Origin: Siminovitchia fordii DSM 16014 = CIP 108821
GTDB lineage: Bacteria > Bacillota > Bacilli > Bacillales > Bacillaceae_C
Assembly: GCF_000374565.1 (NCBI RefSeq)
Contig: NZ_KB894686.1
Location: 124,001 to 188,000, forward strand
Direction of reading: 5' to 3'
DNA: 64,000 bases
The notes under the pieces were generated by a model, which did no database searches, had not been told where the DNA came from, and saw nothing but the letters and a program-made list of their open reading frames with translations. This document shows positions 44,112 to 61,188 of the stretch, piece after piece (position 1 is the first letter of the stretch; every line of letters begins with the position of its first letter). A program made the position numbers and the translations under genes.

Positions 44112-44268
44112 TCTCCTCCTATAGAAATTTCTTTTATTATATGATAATCTGTTATTTTTTCATAACAAAGCTAATATAAAAAGAACTATTTTGGAGAGAC
44201 AAGCAATTGTCTTTTTTTTCCATCATATACATGTAACCAGTGGGTCATTACATTAGGGGGGTGAGGAA

Positions 44269-44628
44269 TTGTCGGGAATTCTGACCGCTATCGGCTTGCT
44301 ATTCAAAGAACTGGTCTTTCTTGTGTCATATGTGAAAAATAATGCATTTCCTCAGCCGCTTTCTCCGGAAGATGAAAAAAAATACTTAATGAGAATGGCT
44401 GAAGGGGATGAAGAAGCACGAAACATATTGATTGAGCACAACCTCCGACTTGTCGCCCACATTGTAAAGAAGTTTGAAAATACAGGGGAAGACTCGGAAG
44501 ATTTGATCTCCATAGGCACTATCGGATTGATCAAGGCCATTGAAAGCTATTCGTTCGGAAAAGGAACAAAACTTGCGACCTATGCGGCTCGCTGCATAGA
44601 GAATGAGATTATAATGTCATTAGGGTAG
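44269..44628 (+). CDS. sigK: Pro-sigma-K, N-terminal half, interrupted by the prophage
   Basis: A 119-residue fragment of the mother-cell sporulation sigma factor. The pro-sequence and the cleavage context '[19 protein letters not shown]' are intact, with SpoIVFB expected to cut between Ser20 and Tyr21. Sigma region 2 follows ('[20 protein letters not shown]', '[17 protein letters not shown]', '[14 protein letters not shown]'). Intact SigK continues 'LMHLRALKK' into regions 3 and 4; here it becomes 'IMSLG' and stops. TTG 44269 is preceded by GGGGGGTGAGGAA. This equals spoIVCB of B. subtilis; the C-terminal half (spoIIIC) should lie beyond the window. Functional SigK requires excision of the element. 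Confidence 0.95.
44600..44616 (+). other. Probable attachment-site core in sigK (attL)
   Basis: SigK homology continues through AGAATGAGATTATAATG and ends within a few bases afterward. AATGA (44602-44606) corresponds to the five-base crossover sequence reported for B. subtilis skin. The precise core needs comparison with the other junction. Confidence 0.55.
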
Positions 44629-44709
44629 ATGGAAATTCTTGAATTCATTGAATCTGATTTAAAGAAGGAGTACAATATACATAACCGATTAAAGAAGGAG
44701 GGGGGCAAC

Positions 44710-45426
44710 TTGAGGAAAACAGTTTTATTAGCTTCTGTTTGGGTTGTTGCTTTCGCATTAATTATTATCAACATTTTAATTAACCCCGGATCATTCTTTA
44801 CGAACGGAACATTAATAGTTGGTTGGTTGTTTTTTTCTTTTCAACTGACCTGGAGTCAATCTGAACGGTTTTATATGCAACTCAAAAGCATTTGGTTTTT
44901 TGTGAAAAATCCCGATTGTATATGGAACATGCAAGTTGAACTTTGTGGGAATTTCCATTACGAAATGCTAGGAAAAATCGATTCGTTTTTTTTGTCCAAG
45001 TACGAAGAAATAAAAATAACAAAATTAAGCAACTGCAGGGTGCTTTACAAAATCAATACATTAGCGTTTGAGATTGTCATCGAAGAGAACCAAATCCGAT
45101 TTACGATAGATGATTTGGAAGTTTCCTACCGAAGGTCCAGAACAATCATACAAAAGGAAATCGGCGGCTTGCTTGAAGGTTTATCACGAATAGCAAAGGA
45201 AGATAGTAGTGATTACTACTTAAACATTAACTTTAAGGAGTATAATCCCTATTTTGGATTTTTTGTTAGGCGTTTGAATGCAAACGAAATTAATACTTTC
45301 AATGTAAAGTTTAATATCGATAACGAAAAGGTTAGTATAAACAAAAAATCCATTGAACTTCATACTGATAGTCTTAGCAAGCTAACCGATTTATCCAAAG
45401 AATATTTATCATTATCCCCACGCTAA
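44710..45426 (+). CDS. Hypothetical membrane protein next to attL
   Basis: A 238-residue protein from TTG 44710, which follows AAGGAGGGGGG; an open frame extends back to the sigK stop but lacks a site. Two hydrophobic segments (about 3-24 and 33-50) form an N-terminal hairpin, followed by about 185 cytoplasmic residues rich in Lys/Glu/Asn. No family recognised. The direct repeat GATT(T)AAAGAAGGAG occurs just upstream (44646-44660 and 44686-44699). It is more AT-rich than the chromosomal genes, and probably cargo of the prophage. Confidence 0.7.
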   Translation: MRKTVLLASVWVVAFALIIINILINPGSFFTNGTLIVGWLFFSFQLTWSQSERFYMQLKSIWFFVKNPDCIWNMQVELCGNFHYEMLGKIDSFFLSKYEEIKITKLSNCRVLYKINTLAFEIVIEENQIRFTIDDLEVSYRRSRTIIQKEIGGLLEGLSRIAKEDSSDYYLNINFKEYNPYFGFFVRRLNANEINTFNVKFNIDNEKVSINKKSIELHTDSLSKLTDLSKEYLSLSPR

Positions 45427-45442
45427 CTATAGGTGGGGCTTT
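45416..45442. terminator. Hairpin between convergent prophage genes
   Basis: CCCCAC and GTGGGG pair around an 11-base loop that contains the stop codon; a T-rich tract follows on the plus strand. Confidence 0.65.
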
Positions 45443-46098
45443 ATTAATTTATTAAATACATCGCAAACTAAATATAGTTCATCTTCCACAGTGGAAAGTG
45501 AGTCGTAAAGAATTATAGATCCTTTCTTAGAAATTGCAACATAGTACTCGTTTCCATCGTGTTCCGCAATATATTTCATCTGTATGGATGAGACGTTTCC
45601 CTCTGCAGCAGCTTCCTTATACTCTTCACTTTTATGAACATTTGGACCAAAGAACCCAGCTGTTTTCAAATGGGCACGCTTTAAGTCGGCAATCCAGGCA
45701 CCAGCAACTTCTGATATTAAAGGGATCATTTTTTTGAAATCCATATTTACCGGATCCAATTCATAGCGATTGGTGGAGTTTAATTTGTTAACAAAGTCTA
45801 AGCTTGCATCAGTCTTAGTCTGAATGATTAATAAATTATCAATATCATGATAGTAAGAATAAAAATTAAGAGGTTCAAAGTAATGATTAAAGTCTCTCCC
45901 GAAAACCCTTCCTCTTCTTTTATGTATATAGTCGTGATGGCAAATGTACTGGTCAAAACCTAAATGGAAATTCGAGATGTTTATTTTAAGACTTATTTCT
46001 GAACTACCTTCGTCCTTAAGAAGGGTTTGTTGAATAGGTACTAAAAATTCATCAGCAAAAAATCTATTAACATTACAAATAAGAAATGACTTAGCCAA
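45427..46098 (-). CDS. Hypothetical prophage protein
   Basis: A 223-residue soluble protein from TTG 46098, with AGGAGGAG upstream on the minus strand. 'ISNFHLGFDQYICHHDYIHK' and 'EVAGAWIADLKRAHLKTAGF' are its most distinctive segments; no catalytic motif is evident. It is not a recombinase. It stands alone between the attL-proximal gene and the DUF898-like pseudogene, reading toward sigK. Confidence 0.65.
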   Translation of the reverse strand: MAKSFLICNVNRFFADEFLVPIQQTLLKDEGSSEISLKINISNFHLGFDQYICHHDYIHKRRGRVFGRDFNHYFEPLNFYSYYHDIDNLLIIQTKTDASLDFVNKLNSTNRYELDPVNMDFKKMIPLISEVAGAWIADLKRAHLKTAGFFGPNVHKSEEYKEAAAEGNVSSIQMKYIAEHDGNEYYVAISKKGSIILYDSLSTVEDELYLVCDVFNKLIKPHL

Positions 46099-46206
46099 TG
46101 GATCTCCTCCTATTTAGTACAATTGGATACTTAATTTATTCGCAGTTTTTCTAACTCACCCTATCGTTTATTTTTTATAATAGAGAAAAGCCCGGAAGGG
46201 CTTATT

Positions 46207-46581
46207 CTAATTTACAAACGTAGTATTACGAGCTTTCCAATCTTCGAGCTTGATAAACACCCAAAATCCATAAATACCGAGTGTAATGACCGTAAAGAAC
46301 CACCATTTAATCCAATGACCAAATAAACCAATTGCAGAACCATGAAATTGCATTCAATTACCTTCGATGACAGTGTGATTAATTTTCCATCCATAGATCA
46401 TCGTAATGGACCATGGATAGCAAATACCAAAGGTGCAAACCGTGACAAGTGTACCAAGAATAACCCAACCTATGTATTGTAGTAGACCACCATCAAAGAA
46501 TGAACTTCTACCTTTGTACGTTTCAACCTTATTAGTTTGAGCCAACTTTTCTCCCTCCATCTCTAATGTTAGCTTCTTCAA
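46207..46581 (-). pseudogene. DUF898-like membrane protein broken by an in-frame TGA
   Basis: The frame from ATG 46581 reads 'SSFFDGGLLQYIGWVILG' and 'CTFGICYPWSITMIYGWKIN' to 'HTVIEGN', then a TGA (46354-46356), and continues in the same frame as 'MQFHGSAIGLFGHWIKWWFF', 'TVITLGIYGFWVFIKLEDWK' to TAG at 46207-46209. Homologous short DUF898-type proteins carry an unbroken 'HTVI.G..L.F.G....LFG.WIKW' sequence across this point. A single base change such as CGA to TGA explains the break. Without the stop the protein would have 124 residues and four hydrophobic segments. Sequencing error is the alternative. Confidence 0.75.
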
Positions 46582-46593
46582 ACATTGTTGTTA

Positions 46594-48021
46594 TCATCTT
46601 TTCGGAGCCCTATAACCAGCATTTTGCGCTTCTTGTTCAGAACAGAACCACTGAGCTACGTTTGTTGTCCTGTCATAATAAGTACTTCCAGGAACGTGAT
46701 ATATTCCATTTTGACTACCTTTGATATTGCAAGCTGCTTGATCCTGCGCAGGCTTCGGTTCTGGCTTAGGAGCTGGTGCCGGCTTTGTTTCAGGTTTGGG
46801 CTGTGGAGCAGGATTAGTTTCTGCCTTTGGCTCCGGCTGAGCTACTTGCTTTTTAGGTTGTGGCTCTGGCTTCGGTTCAGCTTTCTTCAAAGGTGGTTGA
46901 TTTGTATCTTTCTTAGGAGCAATAGCAACAGCTTTTTCTTTTTCCCTTTCCGGCTCTTTAAATCCATCATCTTGAGCATAGTTTTCAATTGCCCAGATGC
47001 CGATGCCTTTTTTCTTAGCTTTTTCTTGTGTGGCTTCAAATTCATCAAGATATTTCGTGTTCGGGGGATAGACGGCCACTCTGGCAAACCCTTTTTCAAG
47101 CAGCATATTATTAAAGAGCTTGTCCTCAATCCAAACATAGGCAAGGAGACGGCCATATTTGTCCCTTTCTTGCGTTCCGAGCTCAAGGGTGACCATTTGA
47201 TTCTCTAGGGTTTTAGTCGTGAATTTAGAAGCTTCTGGACCAAATGGCTGCACTCCCAACCGTGGATGCTTAGTTTCCGGGGTATCTACTAAAATCATTC
47301 GAACTTTTTCTGATTTGCCATTTAAATCAACTTCGATTGTATCACCATCAACAACACGGGTGACTTTAACTTTTTCTCCCTTTACATCACTAGGAGGGGA
47401 GCGCTCACTGGGAACATCTACTTTGGCAGATACTTTTAATTGTTTTTCATCATCAACAAACTTACCAGCCAATAATTTTCCATCGAGACCTATTACTTCT
47501 ATAACCGAATCAGGTTGGTCATCGTGCAACGATACTTTTATCTCTTGTTTTCCTGACTTCAATTCTTCGATAGGAATGGCATCTAATGAAAATTTTCCGT
47601 CCTGGACAGTAGCTGCTTTTTCTACATTCTTGTCCTTGCTATCCTTTAGGGTAACCAAGAGGGCGGTTTCATCCGGAAAATTGGTCTCTCCGGAAATTTC
47701 AACTTGGTTGTCAATAACCTCACTAGCAATCTTTAATTCTGGTGTAAATGTTTTTTCTGTTTCAGCCTGCTTCGTCTGAGTTTCTTTTTCTGGTGCCGTT
47801 GATACTTGCTCTGTTGGTTCAATATTAAGTGCCAAAATAAAAGTAAGAATGAATAAGGCCAGAAATGGTACGCCTGTGATCAAACTGATAAATTTAAATG
47901 ATGGCCCTTTTTTAAATAAACCTCTAATGATAGAGAGGACAATAAAAGCTAATAATGCCGCTCCACTAGCAAGGATGGCCATAATTAGCAAAAAATCAAG
48001 AAACACCTGAATTACCCCCAT
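46594..48021 (-). CDS. Membrane-anchored thermonuclease (SNase-like) with C-terminal sunset-type domain
   Basis: A 475-residue multidomain protein. Two hydrophobic segments (about 7-35 and 42-66) anchor it; residues 85-200 form a beta-rich Ig/FIMAH-like linker ('[20 protein letters not shown]'). The staphylococcal nuclease domain runs from about 212 to 350 with '[18 protein letters not shown]', '[13 protein letters not shown]' and '[13 protein letters not shown]', keeping the Asp/Arg/Glu active-site pattern. A Pro/Lys/Glu-rich spacer (355-425) leads to '[14 protein letters not shown]' and '[14 protein letters not shown]', a short domain frequent at the end of secreted thermonucleases. It probably degrades DNA at the cell surface. 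Confidence 0.88.
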
Positions 48022-48113
48022 TTTAATTTTGTTGCAAAAAGAGTGCTTAGCTTCTTGGAAGTGTTTTGTTCATTAGATATTTATAAGAGAAGCCCCGAAG
48101 GGCTAATCTACTA

Positions 48114-48752
48114 TTATTTAATTTTATAACCACCAGTTAGTTTTGGTTCTGCTACAATGCGATCATCTTTTTCATATCTAAAGACCACGCCTGTATACGG
48201 AGATTTACCAGATCGTTCAACCATTTCTTGAACCGCAGGACCTACAGATTCCACCATAGCCAATTGTTGGTCGACACTAGGAATGAAGAAATCGGAACTA
48301 ACGTATACATTGGTTACTTCCCAATCATCTTCCATAGAGGGTTCAACACTTGTTATAATTCCATCACCAGTTTCGATAAGATCGTTAACCCAAGAATCGA
48401 ACTCCTCGTCAGTTAAATCTTGTGAGCCGTTTTCGCTTGATTCATTATTTTCTTTGCTTTTTGTTTTTTTCTGAGCTTCTTTTTTCTTTTCTTCTGCTTC
48501 TTGGGCTTTAATTAATTCTTCTAGTTTAATTTTTTCCAGTCGCTCTTCGACTTCTTTTAACTCAGTAAGAGCTTGTTCATCATTAGGTTTTTCCTTTAAT
48601 GCTTTATTAAAGGCGGAAGCAGCTTTTTCAAGTTGATAATCCTTAGCAAATTCTCTACCTTGCTGCATGTGTTTTTTGTATTCTGATGATGTACATGCAA
48701 CCAGTGCTAGAGCGCAGAACAAAATGAACACACTAATAAAAACTTTTTTCAT
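48114..48752 (-). CDS. Lipoprotein with TPR-like segment
   Basis: A 212-residue protein with a lipoprotein signal ('FILFCALALVAC', Cys20). Residues 30-70 look like one or two tetratricopeptide units ('EFAKDYQLEKAASAFNKALK'), then a Lys/Glu-rich coiled coil (70-105), a Ser/Asn linker and a C-terminal domain ('DSWVNDLIETGDGIITSVEP') that resembles uncharacterised domains of Bacillus prophage lipoproteins. ATG 48752 follows GGGAGAAAAG. It is likely expressed with the thermonuclease downstream. Function unknown. Confidence 0.75.
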   Translation of the reverse strand: MKKVFISVFILFCALALVACTSSEYKKHMQQGREFAKDYQLEKAASAFNKALKEKPNDEQALTELKEVEERLEKIKLEELIKAQEAEEKKKEAQKKTKSKENNESSENGSQDLTDEEFDSWVNDLIETGDGIITSVEPSMEDDWEVTNVYVSSDFFIPSVDQQLAMVESVGPAVQEMVERSGKSPYTGVVFRYEKDDRIVAEPKLTGGYKIK

Positions 48753-48832
48753 AACTTTTCTCCCTGTTCTTAAGTACTTAAAAAAGAGATCATTTATTAT
48801 TTGACTTATCTATAATGCTTTTTATTTGCTAT

Positions 48833-49195
48833 TTATTCCTCTGTATATTGTACGTCGTCAACCCATTCAAGGGCCCTAAGATGAAGACCACGAGTTACCA
48901 GTAATACTATTATTGACAATACAAAAGCAGCACCGTAGCCACCATATTTCAATCCTAGCCAAAAAGTTATAACTGTCCAAAAGATCGACAATAATGTCAA
49001 TAAAATGATTGCTAGTTTTCTAACCCTAAGCATAAATATCATGCCTAAAAGTATTCCTCCAAACACCCACCATGAACTGGAGGCAAGACCTAAAAATACA
49101 GACAGCAATAGAATTTCACCAAACAACCAGTTGGATGCAGTTTCATTAAATTCTGCCTGAGTGTAGCCTCTCCTAACGTTCTTCATAGATATCAT
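48833..49195 (-). CDS. Small membrane protein, cargo region
   Basis: A 120-residue protein with four closely spaced hydrophobic segments between about residues 25 and 108 and a polar N-terminus ('MKNVRRGYTQAEFNET'). GGGAGGGAA precedes ATG 49195; ATG 49186 is an alternative. No family recognised. Confidence 0.65.
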   Translation of the reverse strand: MISMKNVRRGYTQAEFNETASNWLFGEILLLSVFLGLASSSWWVFGGILLGMIFMLRVRKLAIILLTLLSIFWTVITFWLGLKYGGYGAAFVLSIIVLLVTRGLHLRALEWVDDVQYTEE

Positions 49196-49328
49196 ATATT
49201 CCCTCCCTCTTTATCCTCTTTCGTGGCATAGTTCCAACGTTAATATTAACAAAAATTTTAAGCTTTTATAGATATACCAATTCCAAACGGGGACCTAAGA
49301 TTCAAGCTATCTCAAAAGAAAATCGATT

Positions 49329-49913
49329 TTAATCTATCCACTCAAAAGTCCCTAATTTTCCATTTGCGTATAGCAAAGCATCCATTTTTTTATTGTAGGT
49401 CAGGTTCATTCTATATTGTACAAATTCCTCAGTCACAACAAAAAAATCGGCAATGTCAGAAATGAGTACAGCCTCTTCAATGGCTACATTAAAAACTGTT
49501 TTTAAAAAATGTTCTGGCATAAGAAGATATGCCGCCATACGCTTGGCTTGATTTTCAGTTTTGGCAATCTGATAAGGGTCCTCGGATAGTTGTGATTGGC
49601 AATGACTATAAAGGTGACAAAACTCTTCAGCAAGGATCAGTTTCTTTTCAATAGGTCTTAGGCCTGGTTTAAGGTATATAGTTCCTCGGCGCCCTTTATT
49701 TTTGGGAATGGACAATGCCTTTAAATGACTAATAGATTCATATGCTACAGATTCATCCATAAAGGGCAGTTCCAGCGGTTTTATTTGGATACCATACCGC
49801 CAACATATATCATACATGTCAATTTCATCGGGATATGTATAGTTAAAATGGGAGAGAACCCTATAGGCTCGTTCTTCCCAGTAATCGAAATTATATTTTT
49901 TATCCAGCTGCAT
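49329..49913 (-). CDS. ImmA/IrrE-type metallopeptidase with EExxH variant
   Basis: A 194-residue protein next to the repressor gene, the usual place of ImmA. 'ILAEEFCHLYSHCQS' near 100-114 is the active-site helix: the classical HExxH reads EEFCH, so the first His is Glu, as in some phage ImmA relatives. 'ENQAKRMAAYLLMP' holds the downstream Glu ligand region. ImmA proteins cleave the immunity repressor on induction. ATG 49913 has GGAAGTGA upstream. Activity with the altered motif is uncertain. Confidence 0.85.
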   Translation of the reverse strand: MQLDKKYNFDYWEERAYRVLSHFNYTYPDEIDMYDICWRYGIQIKPLELPFMDESVAYESISHLKALSIPKNKGRRGTIYLKPGLRPIEKKLILAEEFCHLYSHCQSQLSEDPYQIAKTENQAKRMAAYLLMPEHFLKTVFNVAIEEAVLISDIADFFVVTEEFVQYRMNLTYNKKMDALLYANGKLGTFEWID

Positions 49914-50075
49914 GTTATCACTTCCAGTAAACAAACCACGTATATATCAAATGTAATGGTTAAATATTCCTGTTGCTTTTATAAAAATAAACACGACCTA
50001 TTTGATCGTGAGTGCGCTTTCTTTAATGTCTAAATTAGTAAAGCAAATGTAAAACAATAATTTATTTTGTTTTTA

Positions 50076-50507
50076 TCAGTCCTCTAATTCTCCAAATCCA
50101 TCGGCTTCTTCTTGATCATCTTCAAGGAGTATCTTTTTCATTTTATAGAGTTTGATTAGTTCTTTTATCTTTTGTTCTGGATTTGAGGCTAAGTCATGGA
50201 AGAGAACCGGGTTCTTCTTAAGTTCTTCAAAAAGTTTTAACTCTTCTGGAGAAAGGGTAATTTTTTGACCAGCAACAGTGACTTCATTATTTATTTCGTT
50301 ATTAACAGTTCTTCCAAGAAGATAATCAGTAGTTACATCAAATAGTTCTGCGAGTTTTTTCACTGAAGCAAGATCAGGCTCTCTTTTACTCGTTTCGCTC
50401 TCGTAATAACCATACGCTTGCCGTGTGATTCCCAACAAATTTGCGACATCCTGTTGTGTTAGTTTTTTATTTAACCTTAATTTTTTAAGTCGTTTTTGAA
50501 AACTCAT
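50076..50507 (-). CDS. CI/SknR-like XRE-family prophage repressor
   Basis: A 143-residue repressor. Residues 5-62 form an HTH_3 domain ('RLKKLRLNKKLTQQDVANLL', 'GITRQAYGYYESETSKREPD'); the C-terminal half is Lys/Glu-rich and may oligomerise. ATG 50507 is six bases after GAGGAG. It is divergent from a Cro-like gene, with four operator-like sites between them, and adjacent to the ImmA-like gene, so it should keep the prophage silent. Confidence 0.9.
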   Translation of the reverse strand: MSFQKRLKKLRLNKKLTQQDVANLLGITRQAYGYYESETSKREPDLASVKKLAELFDVTTDYLLGRTVNNEINNEVTVAGQKITLSPEELKLFEELKKNPVLFHDLASNPEQKIKELIKLYKMKKILLEDDQEEADGFGELED

Positions 50508-50540
50508 TTTTTTCTCCTCGCAAATCATCAATTAAGTAAT

Positions 50541-50568
50541 AGTATACAGCAACAAATAGTTGCGTAAA
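50541..50568 (-). promoter_or_regulatory. Repressor promoter (leftward)
   Basis: On the minus strand TTTACG (complement of 50563-50568) and TATACT (complement of 50541-50546) are 16 bases apart. Operator O1 fills the spacer. Confidence 0.65.
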
Positions 50569-50654
50569 TAAATAGAAACAAAAAATTGCGTTAAAGTGTT
50601 GACAGAAACAAATTGTTGCGTATAATGTTAATTAATAAAGCAACAAAACGTTTC
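50549..50654. promoter_or_regulatory. Four 15-bp operators O1-O4 of the prophage switch
   Basis: O1 GCAACAAATAGTTGC (50549-50563), O2 GAAACAAAAAATTGC (50575-50589), O3 GAAACAAATTGTTGC (50605-50619) and O4 GCAACAAAACGTTTC (50640-50654) fit the consensus G[CA]AAC-AAANN-[GA]TT[GT]C, an imperfect inverted repeat. O1 lies between the -35 and -10 of the leftward promoter and O3 between those of the rightward promoter. These are the likely binding sites of the repressor and Cro-like protein. Confidence 0.85.
50599..50626 (+). promoter_or_regulatory. Early promoter (rightward)
   Basis: TTGACA (50599-50604), 16 bases, TATAAT (50621-50626), full consensus boxes, with O3 in the spacer. It should drive the early operon from 50674 on. 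Confidence 0.88.
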
Positions 50655-50673
50655 GTTTGGAGGTGAACATTAG

Positions 50674-50901
50674 ATGAGAGATTGGCTTGCAACAGCAAGA
50701 AAAACAAAAAATTTTACTCATCAAGAAGTTGCAGACAAAGCCGGTATTAAACGACAATACTATGGCATGATAGAAAGCGGAGATCGTACACCAAGCGTTA
50801 CCATTGCAAAGAATATTTCCTCAGTTCTTGATGTTGATTGGACTCTTTTTTTTGAAAATCAAAGCAACAAAATGTTGCTAAATGAAAAAGAAGTCAGTTA
50901 G
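50674..50901 (+). CDS. Cro-like XRE-family regulator
   Basis: A 75-residue protein that is essentially one HTH_3 domain ('LATARKTKNFTHQEVADKAG', 'IKRQYYGMIESGDRTPSVTI'). ATG 50674 follows GGAGGTGAAC. First gene of the early operon and divergent from the repressor, as Cro is. It probably competes for the same operators. Confidence 0.88.
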   Translation: MRDWLATARKTKNFTHQEVADKAGIKRQYYGMIESGDRTPSVTIAKNISSVLDVDWTLFFENQSNKMLLNEKEVS

Positions 50902-50912
50902 GAGGTGACACC

Positions 50913-51065
50913 TTGAACTCCAATCAAAAACAAATGGTCACTGACCAATTAATCAAAGTTCTAGCAAACAACAACGTCACATTTTCCGAAGTACCTGAAG
51001 TGATAAAAAAACTGGAAGTTGAGCTTGACCTTCTATGCAAGCAGCAAGTTATTCAAAATCCATAA
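50913..51065 (+). CDS. Small early prophage protein
   Basis: A 50-residue soluble protein starting at TTG 50913 with AGGAGGTGACACC just upstream. It contains 'MVTDQLIKVLANNNVTFSEV' and is largely helical in appearance. It fits tightly between the Cro-like and antirepressor genes. No family recognised. Confidence 0.7.
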   Translation: MNSNQKQMVTDQLIKVLANNNVTFSEVPEVIKKLEVELDLLCKQQVIQNP

Positions 51066-51076
51066 AGGAGGTAACT

Positions 51077-51778
51077 ATGAATCATTTACAGCCAATCACT
51101 CAAAACGGACAACGTGTATTAACAACCGCGCAACTCGCTGAATCTTTTGGAGCGGATACTAAGATCATCAATAGAAATTTTCAGCGTAACTCTGAAAGGT
51201 ACACCCAAGGGAAGCATTATTTTTCCTTAACCGGAGAAGAGTTAAGGGAATTTAAAGGGTCACGTCAATTTGACGACAGCCTGAAATTTACATCCGTTTT
51301 ATATCTTTGGACTGAAAAAGGAGCTTGGCTACATGCAAAATCCCTGAATACCGATCGAGCTTGGGATGCCTATGAAATGTTAGTCGATGAATACTACCGT
51401 ATTAAAGAAAAAATCGTGCCATTGTCAAAGGACCAAGCATTAGTAACAGTTCTCAGAACGACGGCAGACCTTGTGGAGAGCCGTGATTCGATTATTAAAG
51501 AACAACATGAACTTCGAAAGCTAGTTTCACAAGTTGATCAAAAAGTAGATGAGCAAATCACCTTAGACCATGGTGAACAGCGACGACTACAAAAGGCAGT
51601 TGCAGCTAAAGTATACGAACTTTGCAACGATCCAGAAGAAAGGCCGAAATTGTTCCGTGAAATTTACCGGGAAATCAAAGATAGGTTTGCAGTAGCTTCC
51701 TACAAAGATGTGAAACGCAGAGAACTACAGTCGGCCATTCGCTACGTTGAAAACTGGATTCCAAGGAGAGTGAGCTGA
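51077..51778 (+). CDS. Phage antirepressor with ORF6N and ORF6C domains
   Basis: A 233-residue protein. The ORF6N domain spans about 1-105 ('VLTTAQLAESFGADTKIINR', 'GKHYFSLTGEELREFK', 'TSVLYLWTEKGAWLHAKSLN') and the ORF6C domain about 125-230 ('AAKVYELCNDPEERPKLFRE', 'FAVASYKDVKRRELQSA'). Such proteins counter repressors or regulate phage early genes. ATG 51077 follows AAAGGAGGTAAC; an open frame reaches back to 51035 without a site. Confidence 0.9.
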   Translation: MNHLQPITQNGQRVLTTAQLAESFGADTKIINRNFQRNSERYTQGKHYFSLTGEELREFKGSRQFDDSLKFTSVLYLWTEKGAWLHAKSLNTDRAWDAYEMLVDEYYRIKEKIVPLSKDQALVTVLRTTADLVESRDSIIKEQHELRKLVSQVDQKVDEQITLDHGEQRRLQKAVAAKVYELCNDPEERPKLFREIYREIKDRFAVASYKDVKRRELQSAIRYVENWIPRRVS

Positions 51779-51910
51779 TTGAAAAGAAAAATCACAATTA
51801 TTGAAGGTGAGCACTCACAGAAGGTTAAGAAGGCCGCTCAAAAGCGACTGATAGAGATTGCCAGGAAGTATGTCAAGAAGGGGAAAAATCCCCTGAAAAC
51901 TACATCTTAA
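51779..51910 (+). CDS. Small basic early protein
   Basis: A 43-residue very basic protein from TTG 51779, overlapping nothing but directly following the antirepressor stop; AAGGAGAG lies in the end of that gene. 'AAQKRLIEIARKYVKKGKN' suggests an amphipathic helix. Could bind nucleic acid; not recognised. Confidence 0.6.
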   Translation: MKRKITIIEGEHSQKVKKAAQKRLIEIARKYVKKGKNPLKTTS

Positions 51911-51993
51911 TACTAGTTTACTAGCCTTTGAAACAAATGTCTGTTCAACCTCGGAACATGTTCAGAATTTGAACATTCGAAGGAGGTGAAAAA

Positions 51994-52275
51994 TTGAAGG
52001 AGATGAAATTCGGTCCTCTATTAAGGAGTTGGAGGAAAGGGGCAGGTCTTACGCAAGAAGATATGGCAATTAAACTTAAAATATCGCGTCCAAACATATC
52101 GAAACTCGAAAGAGATCAAATTGAGTTAAAGGCCGCCGACTTAATCGGATGGTTTCAAGCTACTAATGCACCGGAAATTGCGGCGGCCATGTTATGTGGA
52201 GCAGACCTAACGGCGCTCACTGAAATCCTAACAAGAGTATCAACACTAATAGGAGGGTTCATTTTATGGATGTAA
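51994..52275 (+). CDS. XRE-family regulator, early operon
   Basis: A 93-residue HTH_3 protein ('LLRSWRKGAGLTQEDMAIKL', 'KISRPNISKLERDQIELKAA'). TTG 51994 follows AAGGAGGTGAAAAA. The C-terminus turns hydrophobic ('VSTLIGGFILWM'). It overlaps the next gene by ten bases. Third HTH regulator in the cluster; target unknown. Confidence 0.82.
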   Translation: MKEMKFGPLLRSWRKGAGLTQEDMAIKLKISRPNISKLERDQIELKAADLIGWFQATNAPEIAAAMLCGADLTALTEILTRVSTLIGGFILWM

Positions 52276-52538
52276 AAAGTTTTTTGACTGAGGATTACCA
52301 CGCTGCATTTAAAGAAACAACCTGCATTATGGATTGTATTTATGTTATGCGGAACGAACTGGTTGAGGGAGATTTTGAGAGAGCTATCATCGCTACAGAG
52401 AACGCTCTGAGGTCCTTCAAAGAATTAAGAAAAATGCAGTTGGAAAAGGAAAAAATCAATGAATTGCAATTGATATTGCAAGAAGCAGAGAAGTCAGGAA
52501 TGGGGATTGTCGTCATACAGGGGTTACTCAATGGATAA
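52266..52538 (+). CDS. Hypothetical early prophage protein
   Basis: A 90-residue helical protein ('FERAIIATENALRSFKELRK', 'INELQLILQEAEKSGMG'). AGGAGG precedes ATG 52266. Position between the XRE gene and the YqaI-like gene corresponds to YqaH of skin, though sequence similarity is not established here. Confidence 0.7.
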   Translation: MDVKSFLTEDYHAAFKETTCIMDCIYVMRNELVEGDFERAIIATENALRSFKELRKMQLEKEKINELQLILQEAEKSGMGIVVIQGLLNG

Positions 52539-52656
52539 CTGGTGGACAGCCTTAATAATGTGGGGGATACCGTTCATCATTCTATCACTCTACTGTATTA
52601 CAACTTTCATCATCAACGAAAGGAGATCAGAAAGTGGAACTAAGACAAGAAATTGA
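52531..52656 (+). CDS. Small single-span membrane protein
   Basis: A 41-residue protein starting at ATG 52531, overlapping the previous stop by eight bases and running into the next gene. One hydrophobic segment covers residues 4-26 ('WWTALIMWGIPFIILSLYCI') followed by a basic tail. No clear ribosome binding site, so translation may depend on coupling. Confidence 0.55.
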   Translation: MDNWWTALIMWGIPFIILSLYCITTFIINERRSESGTKTRN

Positions 52657-52840
52657 AAATTCGATGGTGGTTGATAGTCATTGGAATGATCATGAAAAGC
52701 ATTGGGGCACAGATGCCATGGGTGATGAAATTCTTGAAGGGGACTCAATTATTGAAATTGATGATGATGTGATATTGGAAGAAAACCTGGAGGACTTTCT
52801 CATTGAACATCTTGGAGCAAGGTTCACTTTGGCAAAATAA
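52634..52840 (+). CDS. YqaI family protein
   Basis: A 68-residue acidic protein. 'HWGTDAMGDEILEGDSIIEI' and 'ILEENLEDFLIEHLGARF' match the compact YqaI fold known from the B. subtilis skin element, including the 'G[DE]E...GD.I' and 'ENL..FL...LG' patterns. GTG 52634 follows AAAGGAGATC. It immediately precedes yqaJ here, as in skin. Function unknown. Confidence 0.78.
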   Translation: MELRQEIENSMVVDSHWNDHEKHWGTDAMGDEILEGDSIIEIDDDVILEENLEDFLIEHLGARFTLAK

Positions 52841-52938
52841 AAGACCCCTGTTGCAGCAGAGGTCCCAAGCAATCTTTATAACATTGTTGACACTGGCATT
52901 ATATCACACAGGTGTAATGGCGGTAAAGGAGGATAAAA

Positions 52939-53871
52939 ATGCAAGCGGAAATTCTGATGATGACAAATGATATGTCTCGTAAGGAATGGCTTAAAGCGAG
53001 AAAGAAAGGCGTTGGCGGTTCAGATGCAGCTGCCATAGTTGGTTTGAATAAATGGAAGTCACCTGTAGCTGTTTATCTTGAAAAAGTGGGACAGGCCCCG
53101 GAGGACGAAGCAGGGGAGGCAGCCTATTGGGGAAACGTCATGGAGGATATTGTAGCCCAAGAATTTGCGAAAAGAACCGGTATGAAGGTCCGAAAAAGGA
53201 ACGCCATACTAAAACACTCGGAGCATTCCTTTATGCTTGCCAACGTTGACAGGTTGATTGTGGGGGAAAGAGAAGGGCTGGAATGTAAGACAGCATCCGA
53301 ATACTTGAAAGACAGTTGGATGGATGATGAAGTCCCTGCAGCTTACTTGATTCAATGTCAGCACTATATGGCAGTCACAGGTTATGAAGCTTGGTGGATT
53401 GCGGTATTGGTTGGTGGTAACAAATTTATCTATAAGAAGGTGGATCGGGACGAGGAATTGATCCAGTACCTTATCGATATTGAAAAGAATTTTTGGGAAG
53501 AACATGTTCTCAAAGAAAACCCGCCAGCCTTTGACGGTTCGGATGCTTCGACTGAATTACTTAAAACTTTATATCCAGAGGCTATCCCGGAATCAGAAAT
53601 TACATTGCCACCTGATACTGAGAAACTTATTGATGCTCTAGATCAAGTAAATACCGAGTTGAAAGAACTGCAAATGCAGAAAAAAGAGTACGAGAACAAG
53701 GTCAAAGCCCTTATGGGAGAAAACGAAAAGGCGGTTGCTGGAGGTCGTATTGTCACATGGAAATCAATTACATCAAACAAATTTGATAGCAAACGCTTTT
53801 CAAAAGAATATCCGGAGCTTTATAACAAATTCACTAAACAATCAATCTACCGTAGATTTGCGGTCAAATAG
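52939..53871 (+). CDS. yqaJ: YqaJ family viral recombinase (exonuclease)
   Basis: A 310-residue lambda-exonuclease-type nuclease. 'GVGGSDAAAIVGLNKWKSP' near 27-45 is the YqaJ signature; 'FMLANVDRLI' gives the catalytic Asp and 'GLECKTASEY' the ExK pair near 113-122; 'IQCQHYMAVTGYEAWWIAVL' follows. The C-terminal third is coiled coil. It resects double-stranded ends 5' to 3' to feed the annealing protein encoded next. AAAGGAGG precedes ATG 52939. Confidence 0.94.
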   Translation: MQAEILMMTNDMSRKEWLKARKKGVGGSDAAAIVGLNKWKSPVAVYLEKVGQAPEDEAGEAAYWGNVMEDIVAQEFAKRTGMKVRKRNAILKHSEHSFMLANVDRLIVGEREGLECKTASEYLKDSWMDDEVPAAYLIQCQHYMAVTGYEAWWIAVLVGGNKFIYKKVDRDEELIQYLIDIEKNFWEEHVLKENPPAFDGSDASTELLKTLYPEAIPESEITLPPDTEKLIDALDQVNTELKELQMQKKEYENKVKALMGENEKAVAGGRIVTWKSITSNKFDSKRFSKEYPELYNKFTKQSIYRRFAVK

Positions 53872-53882
53872 GAGGATATTGA

Positions 53883-54692
53883 ATGGCAACTAACCAGGAC
53901 ATTAAAAATCAACTAGCAAACAAGGCTAACGGAAATAAACCGGCATCACCAGCTAATACAATTGCTGCTTACTTAAAGAAAATGGGGCCTGAAATTGAAA
54001 AGGCCCTTCCAAAACACATGGATGCTGACAGGCTTGCAAGAATTGCCCTCACAACAATTCGAACAACACCAAAGCTATTGGAGTGCAACATTTCATCTCT
54101 TATGGGAGCAGTAATGCAGTCGGCTCAATTAGGATTAGAGCCCGGATTAATCGGTCATTGCTACATCATCCCATACGGAAAAGAAGCCACTTTTATCATC
54201 GGTTACAAGGGCATGATTGATTTAGCCCGTAGGTCCGGACAAATTCAAAACATTTATGCTCATGCGGTATTTGAAAATGACGAATTCGATTATGCATTAG
54301 GGTTGCACCCCAAGTTAGAACATAAGCCAGCAGGATCAAACAGAGGGGAAATCATCGGAGCATATGCGGTGGCGCACTTTAAAGATGGTGGCTACCAATT
54401 TGAATACATGGCAAAAGAGGATATCGAAAAACGTAAAAGTCGGTCAGCTGCCGCAAGGTCCAAACATAGTCCTTGGGCAACAGATTACGAGGAAATGGCT
54501 AAGAAAACAGTAATCCGGCACATGTGGAAGTATTTGCCGATCAGTGTAGAGATCCAGCAACAGGCTATACAAGATGAAGTTGTACGGAAAGATGTTACTT
54601 CGGAGCCGGAGTTCATCGATATGGAAGATATGCCGGAGGTTGAGGAAGGTCAGAGTGAAGAATCAGAACAAGTAGAAGCTCCGTTTGATTGA
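53883..54692 (+). CDS. recT: RecT family single-strand annealing protein
   Basis: A 269-residue RecT. 'PKHMDADRLARIALTTIRTT' near 40-60, 'QSAQLGLEPGLIGHCYIIPY' near 80-99 and 'KKTVIRHMWKYLPISVEIQQ' near 205-224 are family hallmarks; the C-terminus is acidic. It works with the YqaJ nuclease in phage recombination and equals YqaK of skin. Eleven bases separate it from yqaJ. Confidence 0.96.
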   Translation: MATNQDIKNQLANKANGNKPASPANTIAAYLKKMGPEIEKALPKHMDADRLARIALTTIRTTPKLLECNISSLMGAVMQSAQLGLEPGLIGHCYIIPYGKEATFIIGYKGMIDLARRSGQIQNIYAHAVFENDEFDYALGLHPKLEHKPAGSNRGEIIGAYAVAHFKDGGYQFEYMAKEDIEKRKSRSAAARSKHSPWATDYEEMAKKTVIRHMWKYLPISVEIQQQAIQDEVVRKDVTSEPEFIDMEDMPEVEEGQSEESEQVEAPFD

Positions 54693-54726
54693 AAAAGGCA
54701 TCTCATTTTAAAAGGCAGGTGATTCG

Positions 54727-55605
54727 GTGCCTCACAGTTATCCATTTTACACTTACTCAGGATTGCTTACACCAAAGCATTATAAAAAGATCGGAAATGC
54801 TATTTGGTTGTTTTTATGGTGTATCAGTTCAACGACATCGGAAAAAGAGAAGGATGGCATTGTGTGGGGCATCGTAAAAGGGAACCAGCCCCACAAACTC
54901 TCGGATTTATCGGAGATATTCGGAGTTAATGAGAAGACCGTCAGAAGGTGGCTCGATGTACTAGAGCAGCATGGATACTTACGTATCACTCGGGCCCCTT
55001 ATGGGTTGGTTTTAACTGTCAGAAATTCAAAAAGAGGACATTTAAAGAGATTGGACAATAATGTCCAATCTGAAAATAGAGATCGGACAAAAATGTCCAA
55101 TCAGTCGGAGAGAGTGGACAAAAATGTCCATTCCAGATCGGACAAAAGTGTCCAATCTAATAAAGATATTATAAATACTACTATTACTACTACTAATAAA
55201 GATATTGACCCTGTCGATGCCATTGCTGAAAAATTCATCGACTTACGAACAATACAAGAAGGTCGTCCGGTTTATCCAAATGCAAAAGACTATGAAGCAA
55301 TCGCCCGGATTGTCGCCCGTGGTATGCCGTTGCCACAAACAATCAAATTGCTTGAGCAGTGTTTTAGCGAATATGCCGAACGTGAGCCGAACGGATCCAT
55401 AAAGGCATTCAGCTATTGCGAAAAATATATTGACGACCATTACGAAAAATTAAAAGCCAGGGATGATGCCCGACGGCTGGCAAAGAGGAGGATATCTGAG
55501 CATGGCAAGCCAGAACATAGCCGAGGTCCTGGAAAAACTCCGCCTAAGGACGAATCAATCACAGGAGGTCAAGTTGGACGAATCCGAAGAAGAAAAACAG
55601 TATGA
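54727..55605 (+). CDS. DnaD/YqaL-like replication initiator
   Basis: A 292-residue protein from GTG 54727. The N-terminus 'YPFYTYSGLLTPKHYKKIGN' and the winged helix 'LSDLSEIFGVNEKTVRRWLD' (about 65-84) are the DNA-binding part of phage replisome organisers; residues 165-255 look like a DnaD-like C-domain ('YEAIARIVARGMPLPQTIKL', 'IKAFSYCEKYIDDHYEKL'). In between, residues 108-145 are encoded by the iteron cluster. Its end overlaps the helicase-loader gene by 104 bases. Equivalent to YqaL of skin by order. Confidence 0.85.
   Translation: MPHSYPFYTYSGLLTPKHYKKIGNAIWLFLWCISSTTSEKEKDGIVWGIVKGNQPHKLSDLSEIFGVNEKTVRRWLDVLEQHGYLRITRAPYGLVLTVRNSKRGHLKRLDNNVQSENRDRTKMSNQSERVDKNVHSRSDKSVQSNKDIINTTITTTNKDIDPVDAIAEKFIDLRTIQEGRPVYPNAKDYEAIARIVARGMPLPQTIKLLEQCFSEYAEREPNGSIKAFSYCEKYIDDHYEKLKARDDARRLAKRRISEHGKPEHSRGPGKTPPKDESITGGQVGRIRRRKTV
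55053..55206 (+). other. Putative replication origin: four iterons plus AT-rich tract
   Basis: Four 14-bp palindromes GGACA-NNNN-TGTCC at 55053-55066, 55085-55098, 55116-55129 and 55140-55153 (start-to-start 32, 31, 24) lie inside the initiator gene and are followed by an A/T-only-like tract TATTATAAATACTACTATT to about 55206. Initiator-binding iterons beside an unwinding element within the initiator gene are typical of phage origins. Confidence 0.75.
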
Positions 55606-56305
55606 CTGCCCAAAATGTCAAGACCAACTTGGTTACATTCAGGGTGAATGGCCCAATGAAGTATGGATCAGGTGCAGCTGCATCGAATGGCGCCGGGCGC
55701 AACGCTTGATGAAATCGAGTGAAATTACGGAGGAATTTAAAAAACTAGGATTCAAAAACTTCAACACTAAGGGCAAACCACAAGTGATACAGGATGCCTA
55801 CGATTGTGCCCTTGAATATTTCCAGGAGTTTGATGCAATCAAGTGCCAACGGCAAAACAGTATTGCTTTACTCGGACAACCTGGGGCCGGCAAGACTCAT
55901 TTACTTACTGCGGTTGCAAACAACTTGATTAATAGATTACATGTACCGGTTCTCTACTTCCCATATGTTGAGGGCTTCAACGATTTGAAAGACGACTTCG
56001 ACAAACTGGAAGAAAAGGTGGAACGCATGAAAAAAGTGGATGTTCTGTTCATTGACGACCTATTCAAGCCGACCGGTAGGGAACGGAAACCGAGAGCCAC
56101 CGAATGGCAGATAGAGCAAATGTACGCGGTCGTTAACAACCGGTATTTAAATCACATGCCAATCATGGTGTCATCAGAACTGACGGTGGACGAGCTTTGC
56201 AATGTTGATGAAGCACTCGGGACTAGGATTTATCAAATGTGCAAGGACTTTACTGTAGTTATTAAAGGAGATCGAAAAATATTAAACCATCGATTGGAGG
56301 ATTAA
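55502..56305 (+). CDS. DnaC/DnaI-like helicase loader (YqaM)
   Basis: A 267-residue AAA+ ATPase. Residues 30-65 hold a four-Cys zinc site ('YDCPKCQDQLGYIQG', 'RCSCIEWRRAQ'). Walker A is 'LLGQPGAGKTHLLTAVANNL' near 122-141, Walker B 'VDVLFIDDLFKPTG' near 180-193. It should load the replicative helicase onto the origin together with the DnaD-like protein. ATG 55502 is about ten bases after GAGGAGG, so the gene starts 104 bases inside the previous one in another frame. Confidence 0.9.
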   Translation: MASQNIAEVLEKLRLRTNQSQEVKLDESEEEKQYDCPKCQDQLGYIQGEWPNEVWIRCSCIEWRRAQRLMKSSEITEEFKKLGFKNFNTKGKPQVIQDAYDCALEYFQEFDAIKCQRQNSIALLGQPGAGKTHLLTAVANNLINRLHVPVLYFPYVEGFNDLKDDFDKLEEKVERMKKVDVLFIDDLFKPTGRERKPRATEWQIEQMYAVVNNRYLNHMPIMVSSELTVDELCNVDEALGTRIYQMCKDFTVVIKGDRKILNHRLED

Positions 56306-56308
56306 CGC

Positions 56309-56485
56309 ATGTGTAACTTTTGTAACGGAACTCACGTGATGAAGGATGATAACGGACCATTGGCTTTTTTTGTAACCTGCCCGGTATGCGGACCAAAATC
56401 GGCGGAGGTCCTGGAAGCAGATCGAAAGGAACGATTAAGACGATTGGAAGAGGCTAGGGCGAAGTTTAAGAAGGAGGCGGTATAA
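56309..56485 (+). CDS. Small zinc-finger protein
   Basis: A 58-residue protein with two Cys pairs, 'MCNFCNGTHVM' and 'VTCPVCGPKSAE', then a charged helix ('RKERLRRLEEARAKFKKEAV'). Start three bases after the loader stop, with GGAGG upstream; its stop abuts the next start. Too short for a named family. Confidence 0.75.
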   Translation: MCNFCNGTHVMKDDNGPLAFFVTCPVCGPKSAEVLEADRKERLRRLEEARAKFKKEAV

Positions 56486-56677
56486 ATGGCTAAATTTCAA
56501 GTTTCAGAGAATGCTAAACGCAAATTTTATATTGATCAGCTGCTTGAAAAGGGATGGACTCATACAAAGGATGGTGTACCAGTCCATGACCTTCCATATG
56601 AGGAGCTCAGGGCAGAGGCGGTACTGATGTCATTTAGGGAAATTGATACGGAGTGTGAAGCAAATCAGTTCTTTTAG
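56486..56677 (+). CDS. Small hypothetical prophage protein
   Basis: A 63-residue protein whose ATG directly follows the previous stop, with AAGGAGG eight to ten bases upstream. 'KFYIDQLLEKGWTHTKDGVP' followed by 'LPYEELRAEAVLM' resembles the small basic proteins of the FbpA type in arrangement only. Function unknown. Confidence 0.7.
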   Translation: MAKFQVSENAKRKFYIDQLLEKGWTHTKDGVPVHDLPYEELRAEAVLMSFREIDTECEANQFF

Positions 56678-56687
56678 GAGGGTTAGC

Positions 56688-57098
56688 ATGGGACAGAGGA
56701 TGTCCGTAGCGGAGTACCGGAAGATCAAACGGAAACCGCGATCCAAGTATAAAAACCGAAAAAGAGAAATTGACGGAATCGTGTTCGATTCGGTCGCTGA
56801 AAGCAAATATTATGAGCAGCTGAAGTGGCTGGAGGCTAACAAGCAGATTCTCTTCTTCCGGATCCAACCTCGGTATCTTTTGCAGGAAGCGTTTGAGAAA
56901 GATGGAAAGACTCACAGAAAGATAGATTACATTGCGGACTTTGAAATACACCATAAGGACGGAACTATTGAAGTGGTGGACGTAAAGGGAGTTAAGACGG
57001 ACGTTTTCCGGATTAAGGAGAAGATGTTTCATAAAAGGTATCCGCATAAGCTGTCGATAGTTAAATACGAGAAGGGAAGATTTGAGGAAGTGAACTAA
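56688..57098 (+). CDS. DUF1064 nuclease (YqaN-like)
   Basis: A 136-residue protein. 'VFDSVAESKYYEQLKWLEAN' (Glu in first helix), 'RKIDYIADFEIHHKDG' and 'EVVDVKGVKTDVFRIKEKMF' show the E...D...[DE]xK order of a PD-(D/E)xK nuclease, as in DUF1064 proteins proposed to be Holliday-junction or replication nucleases. ATG 56688 follows AGGAGGG. Its stop codon is the base before the 3' end of the minus-strand tRNA-like RNA. Confidence 0.85.
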   Translation: MGQRMSVAEYRKIKRKPRSKYKNRKREIDGIVFDSVAESKYYEQLKWLEANKQILFFRIQPRYLLQEAFEKDGKTHRKIDYIADFEIHHKDGTIEVVDVKGVKTDVFRIKEKMFHKRYPHKLSIVKYEKGRFEEVN

Positions 57099-57296
57099 TG
57101 CCACTGACGGGATTCGAACCCGCACTCGTTTCCTAAGCATAGGCTAGGGGAGAACACGCTTCCCTACGGAATTTCACCGGCAGGAATTGCACCTGCCTCA
57201 GCTGTTTTTGCTTTTCGGTGCTTCTGAAACCCTTGCCTTGCGACCCGGGTGCACAATTGTTTTCCGGCGCTCTTCCCTTCTGGAGCTACAGTGGCA
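57099..57296 (-). ncRNA. tRNA-like structured RNA with large central insertion
   Basis: Read on the minus strand: acceptor TGCCACTG (57296-57289) pairs perfectly with CAGTGGCA (57106-57099); TA follows; a D-arm GCTC-CAGAAGGGAA-GAGC (57286-57269); and a T-arm GCGGG-TTCGAAT-CCCGT (57123-57107) stacks directly on the 8-bp acceptor. Between D- and T-arms lie about 145 bases instead of about 25. They contain CCTAG-CCTATGC-TTAGG (57148-57132, anticodon-arm-like, but no T33), a second T-loop-like hairpin GGCAGG-TGCAATT-CCTGCC, and TAGGG/CCCTA. No CCA is encoded. It does not fit tmRNA (no G3-U70, no tag frame) or a group I intron. Confidence 0.65.
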
Positions 57297-57312
57297 ATCT
57301 TAAAGTTCATTT

Positions 57313-57318
57313 ATTATA
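57313..57318 (-). promoter_or_regulatory. -10 box of the tRNA-like RNA
   Basis: TATAAT on the minus strand, 16 bases before the acceptor 5' end. The -35 region (ATTCCA, 17 bases upstream) is weak. Confidence 0.5.
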
Positions 57319-57393
57319 TCAAAAGTCGTTGTGGCTGGAATAGTGAATTTTTCACGGGGTGAAAAAAACAGTTCGACAAATGATGCATTTGAA

Positions 57394-57412
57394 AGGGGAG
57401 CAACCTCCCCTA
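57394..57412 (-). terminator. Hairpin after the SRAP gene
   Basis: Minus strand GGGGAG-GTTG-CTCCCC begins at the stop codon of the SRAP gene and is followed by TTTC only, so it may be a weak terminator or leave read-through toward the tRNA-like RNA. Confidence 0.6.
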
Positions 57413-58087
57413 ACAGATTTTCTGTATTAAATTAGGGCTGTTATTTTTGGGAGAATTGACCAAGCTTGATACCTTATAAGCTTCCATCAGGTCTTCGGGC
57501 AATGGAGCCAATAGGTCATTAAGCTGGTCCGTATTAGTGATGGACTTATCAAGCCAAACAGACTCGTTCTCGGGTTTGAGGATAACCGGCATTCTATCAT
57601 GTATATCCTTTACAAGCTCGTTGGGCCTAGTGGTGATAACCGTACACGAATGAATTGATTCGCCTTCCGGGGATTTCCATGTTTCCCACAATCCGGCCAT
57701 AGCAAAGAGGTCCTCGGATTTAAGTTTGATACGCATGGGAGTTTTGGATTTATCTTCATGGCGTTTCCATTCATAAAAAGAGTCAGCAAGGATTAAGCAG
57801 CGTCTTTTCTTGTATGCATTACGGTAGCTGGGCTTTTCAGCTAAAGTTTCAGCTCGAGCGTTAATCATCTTATAGCCAATTTTAGGATCATTGGCCCAGT
57901 AAGGTATTAACCCCCAACGCAGATAGCCAAGTCGATTGTATGTACCGTCATTGATTACAGCAAGGACATTTTGAGATGGGGCGACATTGTAATTGGGTGA
58001 GTACAAATCTTCGTCAAAGAGATTTTGGATTTCGAACCGGTCAATAATTTCAGGGAATGTAGCAGTAAGGGTAAAACGGCCACACAT
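57410..58087 (-). CDS. SRAP-domain (YedK/HMCES-type) abasic-site processing protein
   Basis: A 225-residue SRAP protein. The N-terminus 'MCGRFTLTA' supplies the catalytic Cys2 that forms the thiazolidine crosslink with abasic sites; 'INARAETLAEKPSYRNAYKK' contains the Asn and Glu region, 'ADSFYEWKR' the Glu, and 'DIHDRMPVIL' the His. These proteins shield abasic sites in single-stranded DNA. B. subtilis SP-beta carries a similar gene (yoqW). Here it is reversed against the early operon together with the tRNA-like RNA, as an inserted unit. Confidence 0.95.
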   Translation of the reverse strand: MCGRFTLTATFPEIIDRFEIQNLFDEDLYSPNYNVAPSQNVLAVINDGTYNRLGYLRWGLIPYWANDPKIGYKMINARAETLAEKPSYRNAYKKRRCLILADSFYEWKRHEDKSKTPMRIKLKSEDLFAMAGLWETWKSPEGESIHSCTVITTRPNELVKDIHDRMPVILKPENESVWLDKSITNTDQLNDLLAPLPEDLMEAYKVSSLVNSPKNNSPNLIQKIC

Positions 58088-58163
58088 ATGATCACCTCGA
58101 AAATGATTTGGTTCATTGTATCAAATTCAAGCTGCAAAATAAATGGAAATCGGAGGGATGCAG

Positions 58164-58343
58164 TTGAGTCCATTACAAGAAATTATTTTATTATCAAACA
58201 AATTACCGGCATTAGTCCTAAAGAATATAAATCAACGAATAGGGGATTGGTTGGCATCAGGGGGAAAAGAGAATGATCCATACATCGAGCAGCAGCTGAG
58301 ATTCGCAAGACGTTTTATTGATCAAGACAAGAGGTGCGATTGA
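58164..58343 (+). CDS. Small hypothetical prophage protein
   Basis: A 59-residue protein from TTG 58164, six bases after GGAGGG; an ATG at 58158 is too close to the site. 'RIGDWLASGGKENDPYIEQQ' followed by 'LRFARRFID' is reminiscent of small phage proteins annotated as DUF6877 (recognition weak). Its stop overlaps the next start (ATGA). Confidence 0.7.
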   Translation: MSPLQEIILLSNKLPALVLKNINQRIGDWLASGGKENDPYIEQQLRFARRFIDQDKRCD

Positions 58344-58885: not shown

Positions 58886-58890
58886 GCCAG

Positions 58891-59530: not shown

Positions 59531-59535
59531 GAGTT

Positions 59536-60054: not shown

Positions 60055-60059
60055 GTCCG

Positions 60060-60085: not shown

Positions 60086-60101
60086 AAGGGGTAGAAGACA
60101 T

Positions 60102-61181: not shown

Positions 61182-61188
61182 ATTATTT

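Follow-up and report, generated by a model that had tools for sequence, protein, structure and literature searches.

A probable skin-type prophage divides sigK in Siminovitchia fordii

Introduction

In Bacillus subtilis, sigK is interrupted by the skin element (spoIVCB-skin-spoIIIC), which carries the large serine recombinase SpoIVCA and a small overlapping ORF for an RDF, Skr. One report describes skr as encoding 64 aa, overlapping spoIVCA by 101 nt and being needed for excision (PMC6957869). The skin of C. difficile is excised during sporulation by a serine recombinase together with an RDF, as a second report states (PMC5025042), and the Alicyclobacillus phage MMB025 is described, in a third, as infectious and as integrated in sigK with a SpoIVCA-family integrase (PMC13141910). 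Bacteria only rarely build a cell-fate regulator by programmed DNA removal.

Here we describe an interrupted sigK in Siminovitchia fordii, a species represented here by one genome (4.51 Mb in 45 contigs). The analysed stretch of 64,000 nucleotides, hereafter the window, corresponds to C2:124001-188000 of the 326,546-bp contig C2; features outside it are given in contig coordinates. It is very likely that the interrupting DNA is a skin-type prophage, integrated by a SpoIVCA-type recombinase and excised in the mother cell with the aid of a Skr-like protein.

Results

The two halves of sigK

The left end of the interruption lies in the window, with the following features.

44197..44230, + strand: sigK promoter-like region, agACAAGC (SpoIIID-like) followed by CATATAC (-10)
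44269..44628, + strand: sigK 5'-half ORF, TTG start, 119 aa, ending ENEIIMSLG-stop
44269..44610, + strand: host-derived part of the 5' half (pro-sequence, region 2, to ENEI)
44604..44610, + strand: attL core TGAGATT, with the attR copy at C2:220872-220878
44611..44628, + strand: phage half of attL, ATAATGTCATTAGGGTAG, where the sigK frame reads IMSLG-stop; similar half-sites occur in relatives
44611..64000, + strand: in-window part of the sigK-intervening prophage, which runs on to C2:220871

The initial annotation recognised a SigK start, pro-sequence and region 2 at 44269-44628, and the ORF present there matches Sigma70_r2 of Pfam (7.8e-17). Extending the contig, the check suggested at that stage, located both the C-terminal half of sigK (C2:220885-221262) and the second junction (C2:220872-220878). 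This 3' half lies beyond the window, 52.27 kb downstream of the 5' half, on the same contig strand (+) and in phase with it. The two halves flank the element with phage DNA between them, so that the claim of a sigK split by a prophage holds. When joined in silico at the empty site, the halves give an in-frame sigK, the product of which shares 94-98% protein identity with the intact SigK of five same-genus genomes.

We found no second sigK across the 4.5-Mb genome, the remaining matches being more distant sigma factors. The next best match, 49% identical over its full length and 60% over the 5' half, lies beside another sigma gene, and we read this pair as sigE-sigG. No intact sigK was found elsewhere and a spoIIIC-like half is present beyond the element, two of the points on which the initial annotation had staked its reading. 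dN/dS ranged from 0.00 to 0.03 in nine of the ten comparisons of the two sigK halves with five intact relatives, the tenth (C half versus L029) being not calculable and synonymous sites being near saturation in several; by this measure both halves are under strong constraint. The locus may nevertheless be that of a young lysogen in which sigK is in practice dead, because dN/dS cannot date the insertion.

The draft state of the assembly (45 contigs), and nothing else, speaks for an assembly artefact or a stray sigK pseudogene. We rejected an assembly error, a second sigK and a pseudogene, as (i) a single contig spans both junctions, (ii) the genome search yielded no other sigK, (iii) both halves are intact, conserved and constrained, and (iv) many other genomes with elements of this family have similar att half-sites. 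The assembly error that the initial annotation had allowed for is therefore unlikely, and we regard an artefact or pseudogene as having practically no chance of being correct.

Junctions and attachment site

The left junction, ATTATAATG, and the right junction, ATTCTCATG, have TGAGATT in common. All five intact same-genus relatives read ENEI-LM-HLRALKK at this place, their empty-site DNA being ENEILMHLRALKK. The comparison of these five genes with both junctions places the crossover within TGAGATT; a crossover at the common ATG, which was our first guess, was dropped once the empty sites pointed to TGAGATT. Given the ENEI-LM of the relatives and the shared TGAGATT, host coding ends at ENEI and the ATA ATG (I-M) that follows belongs to the phage half-site. 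The break had been put after 'ENEIIM' in the initial annotation, which is how the ORF reads, but its 'IM' is phage DNA.

Measured from core to core, the element comprises 52,268 bp (52.27 kb). In the reconstructed attP, 16 of 23 positions form an imperfect dyad whose centre lies between the G and A of the core TGA; none of 2000 shuffles equalled it. The host flanks, C2:164000-168610 and 220872-225000, match one region of genome G001, in which they are adjacent around an intact sigK.

Gene content of the prophage

The in-window part of the prophage carries the following genes.

44629..45426, + strand: membrane-protein-like ORF, 265 aa; likelier start TTG 44710, with a good ribosome site by eye
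46594..48021, - strand: staphylococcal-nuclease-domain protein (Pfam SNase, 2.5e-28)
49329..49934, - strand: ImmA/IrrE-type peptidase, lysogeny control (Pfam Peptidase_M78, 7.3e-13)
50076..50531, - strand: HTH repressor (Pfam HTH_3, 1.4e-14)
50674..50901, + strand: small HTH regulator in a Cro-like place (PHROG transcriptional repressor, 7.7e-11)
51035..51778, + strand: ORF6N/ORF6C phage regulator
52939..53871, + strand: YqaJ-type exonuclease (Pfam YqaJ, 1e-45)
53883..54692, + strand: RecT annealase (Pfam RecT, 1.1e-59)
55463..56305, + strand: DnaC/IstB-type ATPase (Pfam IstB_IS21, 4.9e-9)
57410..58087, - strand: SRAP-domain protein (Pfam SRAP, 1.4e-78)
60690..61181, + strand: sigma-region-4 late regulator (Pfam Sigma70_r4_2, 1.8e-10)
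63208..64000, on to C2:188500, + strand: ParB-N / DNA methylase protein (Pfam N6_N4_Mtase, 6.3e-29)

The 265-aa ORF at 44629..45426 had no Pfam or PHROG match. Over the whole element, Pfam, PHROGs and tblastn detected genes for head and packaging (small and large terminase, portal, head morphogenesis, cement and capsid proteins) and for the tail (sheath, tube, XkdN-like protein, tape measure, LysM protein, baseplate proteins and fibre), besides lysis genes (holin, amidase), lysogeny and replication genes such as those for the repressor, the ImmA-like peptidase and RecT, and genes for the ORF6N/ORF6C regulator, YqaJ, SRAP and the methylase. With head, tail, lysis and lysogeny genes all represented and no obvious decay, the element is, judging from gene presence, apparently a complete myophage, and it may produce virions. 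Among the terminases listed, the nearest large ones were those of Parageobacillus phage JGon-2020a (65%) and C. difficile phage phiCD27 (60%), and the relation to PBSX that we assumed at first was dropped on this ground. Megablast of the in-window part against phages gave no match, and no tRNA was found in C2:160001-240000.

We noticed copies of the nuclease-domain gene (46594-48021), 77-78% identical, between pepF and an intact sigK in two same-genus genomes (G002:C26:192701-194131 and G004:C1:227717-229138); the gene is absent from that place in G001. This pattern may reflect capture of the gene by the phage, or else a scar that an earlier element left.

Recombinase and Skr-like ORF

Two overlapping genes lie at the right end of the element.

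C2:219348-220847: large serine recombinase, reading towards the sigK 3' half and ending 24 nt before the attR core
C2:219254 (start): Skr-like ORF of 55 codons, overlapping the recombinase start by 74 nt in another frame

The recombinase contains the Pfam domains Resolvase, Recombinase and Zn-ribbon. Of 158 relatives the best 80, each at a genome locus, were kept; 61 of these 80 loci had a sigK half in the flanking sequence retrieved. The overlapping skr frame was open over the tested interval in 78 of 79 genome loci from these best 80 of 158, and the third frame in two of the 79; on viral contigs the corresponding counts were 27 and 0 of 34, and five viral loci had no Skr-like ORF. One of the 80 genome loci and two of 36 viral loci (short upstream sequence) were left out of these counts, as was L179, a partial locus among the 37 viral ones.

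A profile built from 70 Skr-like ORFs, this genome excluded, ranked the ORF first among 3741 translated pieces of C2:160001-326546 (1.1e-16), and a second profile, from 71 sequences and confined to the stretch preceding the recombinase start, matched it at 6.3e-6. The Skr profiles also matched G142 and MMB025, and gave no match at E 0.3 or better in L054 and L055, which have a more distant recombinase. G142, which we take to belong to the B. subtilis group, has a recombinase 48% identical to ours and the same sigK site. The small ORF resembles the B. subtilis skr, and the recombinase may be a homologue of SpoIVCA, to which it is linked indirectly via G142 (48%) and the MMB025 integrase (50.6%).

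Promoter-like sequences upstream of skr and sigK

Upstream of skr we found ATGGACAAAC-N8-CATA (C2:219206-219227) within a promoter-like sequence spanning C2:219203-219231. We assume that CATA fits a sigma-E/K -10 element and that GACAA fits a SpoIIID site; a literature search did not find the SpoIIID consensus used here. The pattern ACAR-N9-16-CATA, present in this element, was found upstream of skr in 62 of 88 distinct regions (shuffle mean 2.8, maximum 7). Identical regions were merged, and the 88, none of them directly behind a 5'-sigK, include those of MMB025 and of this element besides regions from genome loci and viral ones. The strict 10-base SpoIIID pattern occurred in 25 of the 88 (shuffle mean 4.2, maximum 13) and the looser pattern was picked after looking at the sequences, so that the SpoIIID/sigma-E site is to be read as a resemblance and not as a test. 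As parts of one recombination module in the relatives, the Skr-like ORF (78 of 79 among the best 80 of 158 loci) and the less uniform promoter sequence (62 of 88) open the co-option of phage excision by sporulation to comparative tests.

In the sigK promoter-like region (44197..44230), the agACAAGC and CATATAC stretches are conserved in all six same-genus sequences aligned; their reading as SpoIIID-like and as a sigma-E/K-type -10 presumes the consensus sequences used here. The genome also contains spoIIID (147 bits).

These observations bear on the possibility that the element is an ordinary temperate phage for which sigK is a mere attachment site, one that excises only on induction and leaves a lysogen unable to complete sporulation. 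The phage gene set looks complete, and a LexA-box-like pair (C2:218563 and 218587, 24 nt apart) lies just upstream of the WYL- and YolD-like ORFs ahead of skr-int. However, skr-int has a promoter-like sequence of the mother-cell type, which recurs in the family, and MMB025 combines reported infectivity with a Skr-like ORF, so that phage character and a sporulation unit go together. We therefore consider this alternative improbable.

The LexA-box-like pair may instead point to dual control, with excision both in the mother cell and, via the LexA-box unit, on DNA damage. A precedent is SP-beta at spsM (PMC6957869), and the phage modules together with the paired sites favour such control. Both strands of the 166.5 kb searched hold four matches to CGAACN4GTTY, and the pair accounts for two of them; a one-strand reading had made the site seem unique on the contig. 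We take this pattern to be the LexA-box consensus. Against dual control, the YolD-like ORF of the unit is apparently frameshifted, and a hairpin with a T-run, seen by eye before skr-int, might stop SOS transcription, although a terminator scan did not list it on the + strand, gave no support for a + strand terminator between the WYL/YolD unit and skr-int, and found no more sites than in shuffles (2 versus 1.8). In the YolD-like gene (C2:218829-219174), the Pfam YolD match begins only at profile position 28, the N-terminal part apparently being in another frame. Dual control is compatible with, and not exclusive of, excision in the mother cell; we hold it to be conceivable, with the balance somewhat against it.

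Survey of related loci

Inspected by eye, the 61 loci with a sigK half fall into four groups: 20 have the recombinase adjoining the 3' half and co-directional, as here; 14 have it beside the 5' half and convergent; in 13 it follows the 5' half directly and in the same direction; and 14 have other layouts. The recombinase lies 171-286 bp behind the 5' half, co-directional and with skr between, in L085, L087, L092, L094, L095, L098, L101, L102, L103, L104, L106, L107 and L131. Where skr-int directly follows the 5'-sigK in the same direction, the promoter pattern occurs in only 3 of 11 distinct regions; the sigK promoter possibly drives skr-int there, and hence its own repair. With this arrangement, L092, L095, L103, L104, L106 and L107 have elements of 6.5-7.1 kb.

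The sigK halves are inverted, 9-11 kb apart and with recognisable att half-sites, at 3 of the 44 loci (counted by eye, partial matches included) that have both halves on one contig; the three are draft assemblies. The halves are direct at the other 41. One of the searches behind these counts covered 39 of its 41 loci.

L077/G414:C7:450050-461780: inverted halves, Pseudalkalibacillus salsuginis
L138/G415:C2:355791-365851: inverted halves, Virgibacillus proomii
L135/G416:C9:69587-80148: inverted halves, Caenibacillus caldisaponilyticus

Given this orientation, recombination would invert the segment and rejoin sigK with no excision. Our literature search on sigK rejoining by serine-recombinase inversion returned PMC5025042 alone, which reports that, in E. 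coli, the C. difficile recombinase inverts DNA flanked by attP and attB in inverted orientation.

sigK is interrupted in 3 of 34 same-family genomes, the C-half frame being 139-181 aa in these as against 246 or more in the rest. One of these three, G027, and four genomes picked from the matches listed order-wide (G336, G071, G366 and G355) have a recombinase only 28-33% identical; the interruption in G027 is around codon 70, another site, and no 5' sigK half was found at 1e-32 in the other four. These interruptions form a second class. In L089 (Anoxybacillus sediminis, 7357-17479), sigK is apparently in three pieces (codons 1-66, codons 62-114 and the C half), as though one gene held two different elements. 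L068, L088 and L111 are perhaps similar, codons 1-61 or so being not found in the fetched stretch. In G301 (C21:309337-318020) and G378 (C9:170372-193457), one complete sigK is accompanied by a second copy of the C-terminal half at a distance of 8-23 kb; neither has a match to our recombinase at 1e-40.

Discussion

In the mechanism that we propose, a SpoIVCA-type large serine recombinase would integrate the 52.27-kb myophage at a fixed sigK site (between ENEI and LM, core TGAGATT). Transcription of skr-int would start in the mother cell at the promoter-like sequence C2:219203-219231, driven by sigma-E together with SpoIIID, and the Skr-like protein would switch the recombinase from integration to excision. 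Recombination of attL with attR would then remove the prophage as a circle. This would leave sigK in frame (...ENEILMHLRALKK...), pro-sequence included; in the forespore the prophage would stay. The developmental rearrangement implied by the initial annotation is supported by the recombinase, the Skr-like ORF, the mother-cell-type promoter sequence, spoIIID and the constraint on both halves, all of them features read from DNA.

It is attractive to speculate, tentatively, that selection acts on a portable sporulation switch, made up of attL/attR, skr overlapping int and a mother-cell promoter, rather than on the phage. In S. fordii such a switch would ride on a complete phage that is possibly infectious; in other genomes it would be carried by islands of ~7 kb directly behind the 5'-sigK, perhaps driven by the sigK promoter itself, and three genera would have it in an invertible arrangement that rejoins sigK with no DNA lost. 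The element is a further example of an apparently complete phage that keeps its place in an essential sporulation gene, it seems, at the price of excising on a developmental signal of the host. The locus gains interest from this apparent completeness, from the LexA-box-like pair upstream and from a Skr/promoter module that recurs in many genera.

Like B. subtilis skin, the element interrupts sigK and has a large serine recombinase with a small overlapping RDF-type ORF. In contrast to skin as described, its phage modules look complete. We take the recombinase of skin to adjoin the sigK 5' half, whereas that of S. fordii lies at the 3'-half end and is co-directional with sigK. The Skr-like ORF spans 55 aa with a 74-nt overlap, and the B. 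subtilis Skr 64 aa with 101 nt (PMC6957869). The initial annotation held that B. subtilis skin and clostridial skin-like elements interrupt sigK at the same place; this does not extend to all clostridial elements, as the C. difficile skin, although it too interrupts sigK, has a different site and the opposite orientation according to both reports (PMC5025042; PMC6957869).

Four elements share the codon site and a Skr-like ORF with ours and differ in the position of the recombinase: those of B. chungangensis (G007; recombinase 61% identical, about 19 kb), Sutcliffiella horikoshii (G403; 59%, about 14 kb), Bacillus sp. HNG (G271; 58%, about 6.8 kb) and Peribacillus acanthi (G062; 49%, about 40 kb). 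Among 50,697 phage records, the top match to the recombinase is that of MMB025 (50.6% identical), which likewise has a Skr-like ORF at the equivalent place but is a 105-kb phage. The S. fordii element is a further member of the kind known from skin and MMB025.
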